Shown here piece after piece: positions 21,412-27,275 of a DNA stretch of 64,000 nucleotides. Position 1 is the first letter of the stretch, and every line of letters begins with the position of its first letter. The translations under genes were made by a program, and so were the position numbers. The stretch spans positions 372,001 to 436,000 of the forward strand of contig CP003083.1 in the NCBI GenBank assembly GCA_000306725.1, written 5' to 3'. Source of the stretch: Methanolobus psychrophilus R15. Lineage in GTDB: Archaea; Halobacteriota; Methanosarcinia; Methanosarcinales; Methanosarcinaceae. The notes under the pieces were generated by a model, which saw only the letters and a program-made list of their open reading frames with translations, was not told the origin of the DNA and made no database searches.

Positions 21412-21574
21412 GTCGAACTGCCCCTGTAGTTATAGAAAGTAAGGAGTAAAGATAGAACAGGTTAATGTCGGAAATATTTTATAAAGCCAGCGAGGTAAAT
21501 GTTCTCATATAATAGTGTGAAAATTACCCCCGGAGGACATGTAAATCGCTAATGGGAACGCTTTTTATAGGATA

Positions 21575-21717
21575 AGGTCACTTGTTGACCTAAGCATAAG
21601 GAGGTAGTATGAGGCGCCTGGAAACCACCACGCTTTAAGGCGCCTCTCTCCTAACGAATCCGAAATATTCCCCAATATTTCTTCCTGGACATTGCGAGTG
21701 ACATTACCCGCAATGTC
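21575..21717 (+). ncRNA. Candidate structured RNA: four successive hairpins
   Basis: In the 430-base gap after the cupin gene four foldbacks follow each other: AGGTCA-cttgt-TGACCT (21575-21591); a long one in which AGGAG (21599-21603) and GAGGCGCCT (21611-21619) pair with AGGCGCCTC (21638-21646) and CTCCT (21648-21652); GAAATATT-cccc-AATATTTC (21662-21681); and GACATTGCG-N12-CGCAATGTC (21688-21717). A TATA-like tttttatag lies at about 21562-21569. The downstream plus-strand gene is far away and the next gene is convergent, so this may be an independent transcript. Strand is inferred from the TATA element and the ribosome site. Confidence 0.5.
21609..21638 (+). CDS. Nine-codon reading frame inside the structured RNA
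   Basis: ATG preceded by AAGGAGG five bases upstream, encoding MRRLETTTL and a TAA stop. The ribosome site and the start codon lie in the long hairpin (21599-21652), which would hide them when folded. Just upstream another good ribosome site, CGGAGGAC, is followed directly by ATGTAA (21539-21544), a minimal start-stop. Whether either is translated is unknown. Confidence 0.3.
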   Translation: MRRLETTTL

Positions 21718-21841
21718 TAATAGGCACTTTCTATATATAACCTAATCCGTTCTTAATAATACGAACGAGCTGACAATTTTCCATCAGGCTTTATTTTAAT
21801 GCCATTATAATTTCAGCCCGCCTTTTCTGCTCATTCTACGT

Positions 21842-22339
21842 CTATCCTTTTCTCTTAAAGTAAATGGCCGATAGTATTCCGACAATGGCAAGAACAGCAC
21901 CAAATCCAGGGGATTGTTGCTCAGATGCTGATTCATCAGATGGCTCCTCATTCGTTTCCTGTTCCTGACCTTCATTTACAGGAGCAGGTATGTCTCCTGT
22001 CGATGGAGTCTCCGATTCAGTTTGTGGGTAATCAGCAGGGTCCCCCGGGAATGTCAGGGTATTGATCTCTTCCAGGTTGGTGAATCCATCCCCGTCAGAA
22101 TCGAGCGCTTCAATCGATGCAAAGTCCCTTCCACTTGCCGCATATGCCATCCCGTAAGGATTCCGAGAGCCTCCGCCGTTTGGACTAATGTGACAGGTAG
22201 CGCATGCATCAAGCTTTGTGTCTTCTGTGTCATATTGCTGGTTGAAAGCATCCAGATATGCGGGCCTCGCTGAGACAATGGGTGAGCCCAACAACATTAT
22301 AATTACTAACAAAACCACTGCAATTAAATTATTGTTCAT
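21842..22339 (-). CDS. Secreted c-type cytochrome-like protein with PGF-CTERM anchor
   Basis: 165 residues from the ATG at 22339; an in-frame ATG five codons earlier is also possible. After a signal peptide (about 1-22) comes one heme-attachment motif, CATCH (about residues 44-48), then NPYGMAYAASG and the calcium-binding repeat DSDGDGFTNLEEI. A disordered acidic stretch (about 105-138) leads to the archaeosortase signal SPGFG, a hydrophobic helix and the basic end KRKG, so the protein should be processed and lipid-anchored on the outer surface. Likely a monoheme electron carrier; partner unknown. Confidence 0.75.
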   Translation of the reverse strand: MNNNLIAVVLLVIIMLLGSPIVSARPAYLDAFNQQYDTEDTKLDACATCHISPNGGGSRNPYGMAYAASGRDFASIEALDSDGDGFTNLEEINTLTFPGDPADYPQTESETPSTGDIPAPVNEGQEQETNEEPSDESASEQQSPGFGAVLAIVGILSAIYFKRKG

Positions 22340-22466
22340 ATTTTCATCCCACATTCCTAAGTAAATAATAAGTTCATTATTACATAGTTATAAATGTTCT
22401 TATCTGATTGAATAAGAGAAGATTGATAATAAAGATTTCATCAGGTAAGAGAGTTATTGTTTAAGG

Positions 22467-22843
22467 TTGAAGCTCTCAGAAGCAAAGGAAGTTACTGAGG
22501 AGTTCAACACGTGGATGAATAAGAAAACACCTTATCAAAAGCAATCAGTAATGTGGAGTTATGCCTTGTTGTTGAAGACTAGAGAATTGGCTCAGTTACT
22601 TATTGAAAAGAAAAAGTCTTTGATTTCTGAAAGCCTGAATATGCTATTTAAAGACAGGATTCAGAGGGTATCAGGCATAAGATATTGAGCATCTCATATA
22701 CTGATTGGGAGAGTATGGGATTCTCTAAAGTTACTCTGCATTACATGAAGAAGAATGCTGAAGCTGACAAGCCATTTACTCTTAATGCTCATGTTAGGGA
22801 AAGATTGGAGACTTGGGAGAAAAATAAAGCATCATTGATGTGA
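22467..22843 (+). pseudogene. cas1: cas1 fragment (C-terminal part, frameshifted)
   Basis: Remnant of the CRISPR integrase Cas1. The first frame (to about 22662) encodes EEFNTWMNKKTPYQKQSV and LLLKTRELAQLLIEKKKSL; after a one-base loss near 22662 the next frame continues as ILSISYTDWESMGFSKVTL, HYMKKNAEADKPFTLNAHV and RERLETWEK to a TGA at 22841-22843. This is the C-terminal third of Cas1; the catalytic N-terminal two thirds are absent, and no other cas gene or repeat array is in the window. A short stretch of low-GC DNA from here to 23745 looks like a leftover of a lost CRISPR locus. Confidence 0.75.
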
Positions 22844-22959: not shown

Positions 22960-23745
22960 ATGAAGAAGCCCTTACTTGATGTGATATTTGCATCTGAGAA
23001 GCGAAAAGGAGTTCTCTTGATGCTACAGGATGGAGCAAAGGAAATGGGTTTTCTTCTTGAATCCCTTAGTACTACTAGGCAGGCATTGCTTCCTCAGATT
23101 AGAATACTTGAAGAGCATTACCTTGTTGATCACTATGCGGATACTTATAAATTGACAACTATTGGAAAGTTAGTTGTTGATGAAATGGCTTCTTTAATAA
23201 ACACTGTTGAGACTTTTGATGTTGACATTGACTATTGGGGAACTCATAATATAGATTCCATTCCGCCTCATCTATTAGAAAGGATTAGCGAGCTTAGAAA
23301 ATGCACTATAGTCAAACCTCAAATTACAGAGATAAACAGCTTATACAAACCATTTAACCTTGAGAAATCAACTACTAAATCAGTCCATTTAGTTGGTGCT
23401 TTCCTCTATCCTGATTTCTATTCAACGTTTACAAAGCTGCTTGAGAATAGTTTTACTATACACTACATTATTTCTAAAGAACTGCTCGATAAAATAAAAG
23501 AAGAGCAACATGAAAAATTTGCAGCTCTTCTTAAGAACAAATCTTTCAATTTGCATGTTTATAATAAAGAAGCAAGTTTCTTATTTTTTGTATATGATGA
23601 TGTTAATCTTATGATTGACTTCATAACAAATGAGGGAAAATTTGATATTGAACATGTTTTGTGCAGGAGAAAAAGTGCCCTTGAGTGGGCAAAAGAGTTA
23701 TTTGAATACTATTTGAGAGACTGTACACCAATTACTGAGATTTGA
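22960..23745 (+). CDS. FilR1-like winged-helix transcriptional regulator (DUF1724)
   Basis: 261 residues. Residues about 1-75 form an ArsR-like winged helix (DVIFASEKRKGVLLMLQDG, STTRQALLPQIRILEEHYLV, YKLTTIGKLVVDEM); the remainder matches the methanogen-specific C-terminal domain of the FilR1/DUF1724 family, with IPPHLLERISELRKCTIV. These proteins are abundant in Methanosarcinales, FilR1 being linked to methanogenesis and filament formation in Methanothrix. Low GC compared with neighbours. It sits next to the cas1 remnant and is convergent with the TctA-like gene. Target genes unknown. Confidence 0.85.
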   Translation: MKKPLLDVIFASEKRKGVLLMLQDGAKEMGFLLESLSTTRQALLPQIRILEEHYLVDHYADTYKLTTIGKLVVDEMASLINTVETFDVDIDYWGTHNIDSIPPHLLERISELRKCTIVKPQITEINSLYKPFNLEKSTTKSVHLVGAFLYPDFYSTFTKLLENSFTIHYIISKELLDKIKEEQHEKFAALLKNKSFNLHVYNKEASFLFFVYDDVNLMIDFITNEGKFDIEHVLCRRKSALEWAKELFEYYLRDCTPITEI

Positions 23746-26373: not shown

Positions 26374-27275
26374 TCGAAAATATAATCCTCGAGAGAATAT
26401 AGTTTTTTACCGTTCCTGTTCAGGTACAGACGAGTCCACCAGATAGCCGTGAGCGGCTGTACCACTATCAGGGTAAGCATAATATTAGTCAATGACCACA
26501 CCTGTGCCACTACATCAATGTATCCTGCAATCTCACCTAGAAGCTGTATAACTACAGCAATAACCATCAAGAACAGCCACAGTGCCAATGCGCTGGACTT
26601 GTTGGACATAAAAACCGCCACTCCTTTTTCAATTGCACTTACCGGGTCCAGGTTTTCAATCACCAGGGCATACTGGACAAATACCAGTACAATGCTTATC
26701 GCCAGAAGATAGAAGCCCCATATCAAAAGCCCGAAAAGCAGCATGGAAGTACCTGCAATAGCCTGCTGCGGATCACTGAGAAGCGTTCCAAGGTCCCCTA
26801 TGGAGAGGATGCCAGGTATCATAAAAACAATTCCTGCCAGGGCGAGCAGCAACATAAGAATTTTTGCAAGGAACAGGCTCACAACATTCCTCATTCCGTA
26901 TGCTGACATATCCCCTAAATTCGTGTCACCCCTTTGTGAAGCTTCTTTTGACATGCCTATGGCACCTGCCATAAAGAAAGACTGCAGGAACATATACATA
27001 AGGACAAAAACAATCCCGAATGCCACAAGGGGCCAGATACTTCCAGAAAGCAGGGAGCTAGTTACAGCCAGAAACTCCTCAGGGCTTAGCTGCTCGAGGT
27101 CCACATTGTTGGCTGAAATCCCAGGAAGTATGAATAGCATTACAAAGAACATAGTAAATATAATGAACAGGACAAATGTCGTCAGAATCTCCATGATAAA
27201 GGGCACGCAGATAGCAAGGTTTCTTTTCCATGTGCTAAAACCTTTGTGTACTATAGTTGTAATATCTTCGGTCAT
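26367..27275 (-). CDS. Polytopic membrane protein, DUF7847-like
   Basis: 302 residues with about six long membrane helices, several with small-residue packing (YMFLQSFFMAGAIGM). It resembles archaeal DUF7847/glycerophosphodiesterase membrane-domain proteins. No catalytic motif seen. The 3' end overlaps the convergent tRNA-thiolation gene by 7 bases. Function unknown. Confidence 0.6.
   Translation of the reverse strand: MTEDITTIVHKGFSTWKRNLAICVPFIMEILTTFVLFIIFTMFFVMLFILPGISANNVDLEQLSPEEFLAVTSSLLSGSIWPLVAFGIVFVLMYMFLQSFFMAGAIGMSKEASQRGDTNLGDMSAYGMRNVVSLFLAKILMLLLALAGIVFMIPGILSIGDLGTLLSDPQQAIAGTSMLLFGLLIWGFYLLAISIVLVFVQYALVIENLDPVSAIEKGVAVFMSNKSSALALWLFLMVIAVVIQLLGEIAGYIDVVAQVWSLTNIMLTLIVVQPLTAIWWTRLYLNRNGKKLYSLEDYIFDH

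Follow-up and report, generated by a model that had tools for sequence, protein, structure and literature searches.

The window analyzed here comprises 64,000 nucleotides of the Methanolobus psychrophilus R15 genome (contig CP003083.1, positions 372,001 to 436,000), which consists of one contig of 3,072,769 bases. Position 26,651, assigned in PMC5378194 to the histidine kinase gene Mpsy_0031 ahead of HisKA and REC, falls in such a gene in this contig, as judged by reading the domains from its sequence. Within this window, four adjacent foldbacks together span 143 nt. The first pairs AGGTCA with TGACCT (21575-21580/21586-21591, 6 pairs), the second and third are perfect (21611-21619/21638-21646, 9 pairs; 21662-21669/21674-21681, 8 pairs around a CCCC loop), and the fourth has 12-nt arms that are 92% complementary (21688-21699/21706-21717). 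CTCCT at 21648-21652 is a possible pairing partner of an AGGAG near 21600, and by this outer pairing the second foldback (H1) can be extended. The same stretch holds a nine-codon frame (ATG..TAA, 21609-21638) and an ATGTAA at 21539-21544 with GGAGG ahead of it. All elements listed in a preliminary description of this DNA were found, and the foldbacks are real: positions 21500-21730 folded at -70.2 kcal/mol, whereas shuffles averaged -52.6 (sd 4.3; z -4.1), and none of 200 dinucleotide shuffles folded as low as the native plus strand. For the minus strand of the hairpin stretch, the folding z was -3.1. The next gene downstream of the hairpins (21842-22354) lies on the minus strand and is convergent, which bears out the earlier view that the plus strand carries a structured element other than a leader of that gene. 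The product of the convergent gene is small, of a secreted type, and carries two motifs, PGF-CTERM (PF18204) and a heme-binding-like CATCH motif (CxxCH); its match to Temptin_C fell just under the cut-off. The features of the locus are as follows.

21527..21536, plus strand: CC..GG dyad (CCCCCGGAGG) ahead of the promoter, a candidate binding box for a regulator; recurs before TATA boxes
21562..21569, plus strand: TATA box (TTTTTATA) of the putative sRNA gene; belongs to a TATA pile-up before H1 and is kept in the ortholog
21588..21592, plus strand: predicted transcription start, genome positions 393,588-393,592, from a TATA-to-start spacing of 19-22 nt (PMC5378194)
21611..21646, plus strand: hairpin H1, 9 pairs, loop with a near-invariant AAACCACCACGC; covariation
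21647..21661, plus strand: pyrimidine-rich linker TCTCCTAACGAATCC; conserved in the alignment
21662..21681, plus strand: hairpin H2, 8 pairs, CCCC loop; covariation
21688..21717, plus strand: hairpin H3, 12-nt arms with one mismatch; covariation on 32 chosen stems, and the ortholog
21726..21742, plus strand: T-rich tract ACTTTCTATATATAACC, candidate terminator; conserved after H3 in a 58-locus alignment
21791..21816, plus strand: conserved distal box of TTTTAATGCCATTATAATTTCAG type, present in most loci ∼100 nt beyond H3; perhaps a further terminator
22960..23745, plus strand: gene for a FilR1-type regulator (PF08350 FilR1_middle, E 4.6e-20; PF25213 HVO_A0261_N, E 2.4e-9)

When a 401-base stretch of the locus was compared with its own genome, 24 matches were obtained, most covering only ∼21602-21682. 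Covariance model R1, built from an alignment of 38 units from several genomes, gave 24 matches in R15 at E values up to 1. Across the order, the model (E up to 0.001) matched in 11 of 185 genomes and in 1 of 27 genera, with 2 to 24 matches per genome; the carriers are 11 of the 27 Methanolobus genomes. The 26 other genera yielded no family match in this search, which used stricter filters, scored 24 candidates per genome and could miss weak matches outside Methanolobus. An exact-pattern scan of named genome contigs, which detects near-identical loops only, found 28 stretches, all labelled Methanolobus. The whole window had 0 matches at or above the gathering threshold in Rfam 15, and a lax Rfam search at the locus returned only two irrelevant weak matches beside it (E above 2).

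From four of the 11 carriers, chosen for assembly or copy number, 50 regions were fetched, in which model R1 located 79 units; these form 59 loci, of which 20 are tandem pairs. The family architecture comprises three covarying hairpins, with the H1+H2 unit either single or in two tandem copies. Locus counts refer to 58 of the 59 loci (a truncated unit at a contig end, L013:3693-3770, was dropped), a set without at least two places in genome G003 that the order-wide search had listed. The dropped remnant (genome 3072692-3072769) overlaps a truncated FilR1 reading frame at the contig end. In another copy (L016:2976-3105), a longer, unrelated hairpin stands in place of H2, while H1 and the tail are kept. 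Many pairs of R15 copies whose flanks are unrelated had in common just the unit and the ∼80-95 nt after it, an extent that would fit a transcribed body; a few copy pairs shared longer flanks.

The covariation check in relatives, as proposed in the preliminary description, was carried out with the covariance model and three alignments. In the first (A2; 38 rows from 49 rows of matches, omitting the degenerate unit L013:3146-3230, one duplicate and short or weak matches), 93.2% of cells were paired versus 88.3% after shuffling, 41 cells were changed on both sides versus 13.5, and pairing was 36-75% when partners were slid. One of five measures, that of further pair types, was not above the shuffles in A2, with 125 of 500 shuffles reaching the observed value. 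In the second alignment (A3; 79 matches, 76 distinct, fitted to model R1), pairing reached 91.4% of cells versus 84.0% in shuffles, and changes on both sides affected 120 cells versus 42. Examples of such changes in H1 were GGTGCTT/AAGCACC and GGCACCC/GGGTGCC. For H3 (A5), 59 loci yielded 55 stems, from which 32 in the homologous place were selected by hand, a choice that leans towards pairing; here, 85.1% of cells were paired versus 76.3% shuffled, with 30 double changes versus 13.5, and two of five measures were not above the shuffles. Since H1, H2 and H3 all exhibit compensatory changes, their structure is conserved as that of an RNA would be, and the structural core of the preliminary description stands. 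The structured RNA gene family is real and is new to Rfam.

Judged from sequence, each locus resembles an independent gene, with a TATA box before H1 and the T-rich tract after H3, where T-rich sequence is conserved. TATA-like sites 40-54 nt before H1 gave 66 hits versus ∼6 expected; a TATA box was present 34-60 nt before H1 in 41 of the 58 loci and missing from the expected place in 17. Among these 41 loci, which are related and hence not independent, 15 carried a CC-N4-7-GG pattern 30-39 nt ahead of the TATA box (1.1 expected from shuffles), and a second CC..GG pile was seen 70-79 nt before it in 12 (1.2 expected). The orthologous locus in a second genome (L109 in G011) is identical over the unit and has kept the TATA box and the tail. 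Its H3 has gained a pair that mends the window's mismatch, and its distal box (21791-21816) is identical but for one base, with the alignment ending past ∼21820. Its dyad is altered to CCCATGAAGG, and hairpin 1, the first of the four foldbacks, is broken.

TATA boxes of M. psychrophilus R15 lie 19-22 nt from the start site (PMC5378194). With a predicted start at ∼21588-21592, hairpin 1 and the start-stop would lie outside or at the edge of the RNA. Because hairpin 1 sits at this predicted start and is broken in the ortholog, the conserved chain consists of three hairpins, and not of the four originally described; hairpin 1 as part of the RNA was ruled out by its disruption in L109. The strong ribosome site followed by a start-stop, which had been noted upstream, finds no support: ATGTAA lies 5' of the TATA box at 21562-21569 and therefore probably outside the RNA, and its GGAGG is one half of the recurrent dyad.

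The reading that we favor, with a probability of about 0.6, is that this stretch is one member of a multicopy family of sRNA genes in Methanolobus, whose RNAs act in trans and are probably cold-induced, and whose mode of action we infer. Features of such families found here are several structured copies, an own TATA box (from sequence evidence) and accessible C/U-rich motifs. In R15, 195 intergenic start sites have been reported, as well as nine sRNAs, highly conserved and induced by cold, that share a 'cold box' motif upstream of the promoter (PMC5378194). These RNAs resemble the present family in that they are conserved intergenic RNAs of the same organism with a shared motif upstream of their promoters. 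The main text of that paper gives no sequence, structure, spread or gene neighbors for them; the nine sRNAs are candidate and likely members of the family, and the upstream dyad is possibly the published 'cold box'. A literature search, which did not extend to the supplement of PMC5378194, found no description of the family.

Dispersed palindromic copies, up to two dozen in part of one genus, together with tandem and partial copies, would also suit a non-autonomous mobile or REP-like palindromic repeat, whose structure is kept for mobility and which has no regulatory role. The unit remnant over the truncated FilR1 gene at the contig end, which suggests recombination between units, points in the same direction. 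However, the TATA box at a fixed distance and the conserved tail lie outside the shared body, the orthologous locus L109 has been kept with its promoter, and the family is strongly tied to one gene family, FilR1. Moreover, phage and plasmid records contained no match, nor did viral contigs contain the exact pattern. We therefore consider a mere repeat unlikely.

The tie to FilR1 was apparent from the neighborhoods. A FilR1-type regulator gene was located within 2 kb in 37 of the 58 loci of the four genomes (12/18, 9/15, 2/10 [G026] and 14/15), whose FilR1 gene lists had already been seen before the regions were fetched. In the genome of R15, 12 of 19 loci among the matches listed were within 1.5 kb of a PF08350 domain, a distance for which 3.0% of the genome qualifies. 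G026 alone had 2 of 10 loci within 500 bp of FilR1 (p 0.013; within 1.5 kb, p 0.057); the linkage test with PF08350 used 32 of 34 places in G000 and 33 of 34 in G026. Over the 27 Methanolobus genomes, unit number and number of FilR1-protein matches were correlated (Spearman 0.72, uncorrected for shared ancestry), as they were within the 11 carriers (Spearman 0.82), and the window's FilR1 protein had on average 27.4 matches in the 11 carriers versus 10.8 in the 16 others. The RNA and the FilR1-type regulator might conceivably form a two-part cassette, co-multiplied in part of Methanolobus, in which the RNA is controlled by the regulators or itself binds and controls them. We hold this reading to be doubtful; if true, it would constitute an archaeal family in which regulator proteins are paired with regulator RNAs.

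The nearest FilR1 gene lay 5' of the unit and on the same strand in 22 of 58 loci, with a gap between frame and unit of commonly 74-81 nt. This arrangement would be compatible with an untranslated or processing element at the 3' end of FilR1 genes, that is, an mRNA tail serving stability control or a 3'-derived sRNA. Such an origin is rather improbable, since 21 of 58 loci had no FilR1 gene within 2 kb, the nearest FilR1 gene was opposite or 3' in 15 of 58, and a TATA box separates gene and unit; the window copy itself is preceded by a cupin gene and possesses a TATA box of its own.

The nine-codon frame, whose ATG had been described as locked by the pairing of AGGAG with CTCCT, was not maintained among the copies. 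An ATG was present at this place in 50 of the 79 units, a stop at codon 10 after any first codon in 28, and both together in only 17; in many units, the frame is shifted by single-base indels in the loop. A conserved peptide was rejected on these grounds, and the frame is best read, from its sequence distribution, as a chance occurrence within a conserved RNA. A translation-coupled leader, in which AGGAG locked by CTCCT controls the nine-codon peptide in an attenuation-like manner, would draw on the AGGAG and ATG of the window copy and on the ATG of the 50 units, but is most improbable given the scarcity of the complete frame and the frame-shifting indels, the convergent gene that the window copy faces with no co-oriented gene downstream, and the FilR1 gene being nearest on the 3' same-strand side in only 8 of 58 loci.

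As members of a trans-acting sRNA family, the copies would each be transcribed on their own. An RNA starting near 21590 and ending in the T-rich tract would measure ∼140-170 nt, or roughly 240 nt with tandem units. The upstream dyad might mediate joint induction of the copies, possibly by a FilR1-type regulator and possibly at low temperature. Acting in trans, the RNA would expose redundant, unpaired C-rich stretches (H1 loop, linker, H2 loop and H2-H3 linker) as contact sites for mRNAs or an RNA-binding protein, and a purine-rich leader would be able to mask the linker. The C share was 33% in the H1 loop, 34% in the linker and 82% in the H2 loop, with 5-12% G, and C plus U made up ∼72% of linker letters over the 79 units. 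To see whether the C-rich stretches pair with start regions, 44 genes of the window were used, their start codons assigned by a simple rule. Against these 44 start regions, the C-rich stretches had no advantage over shuffled versions of themselves. For the linker, pairing was better at start regions than inside genes (p 0.017), yet no better than for shuffled linker, and the other two C-rich stretches showed no start-region preference among the 44 genes. Ten FilR1 start regions showed a slight pairing advantage over other genes (p 0.20, 0.065 and 0.035, uncorrected), a difference that was not counted. With this test negative against shuffles, the RNA may act either by pairing with mRNA or by binding protein.

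Among the closest known parallels is LhrC of Listeria monocytogenes (PMC4132741), which likewise has several near-identical, partly tandem genes and redundant C/U-rich motifs in loops and in a single-stranded stretch. Control of the whole group by a single regulator is a feature of LhrC and is only proposed for the Methanolobus family; pairing with ribosome sites is proven for LhrC, whereas the corresponding test was negative here. LhrC is bacterial, and its sequence is unrelated as far as seen. On the protein side, the Methanolobus neighbors share the FilR1_middle domain with FilR1 of Methanosaeta (Methanothrix) harundinacea (PMC3991700). The latter has a receiver domain, and the abstract of that report mentions no RNA partner; the four neighbor proteins examined contain HVO_A0261_N-like and FilR1_middle domains only.

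The functions of archaeal sRNAs are poorly known. The present family combines clear covariation with up to two dozen copies per genome and absence from Rfam, is linked by position as well as by number to an expanded family of methanogen regulators, and may account for the conserved cold-induced sRNAs of R15. The exact coordinates and stems given above can be checked against existing R15 dRNA-seq data.

Two short plus-strand frames at 22467-22843 of the window had no Pfam match. Elsewhere, a partial Cas1 gene (L012:4344-4934, PF01867) is located near another copy of the element. The end of the window frames, TLNAHVRERLE, resembles the tail of this gene, and the frames are perhaps a cas1 remnant.
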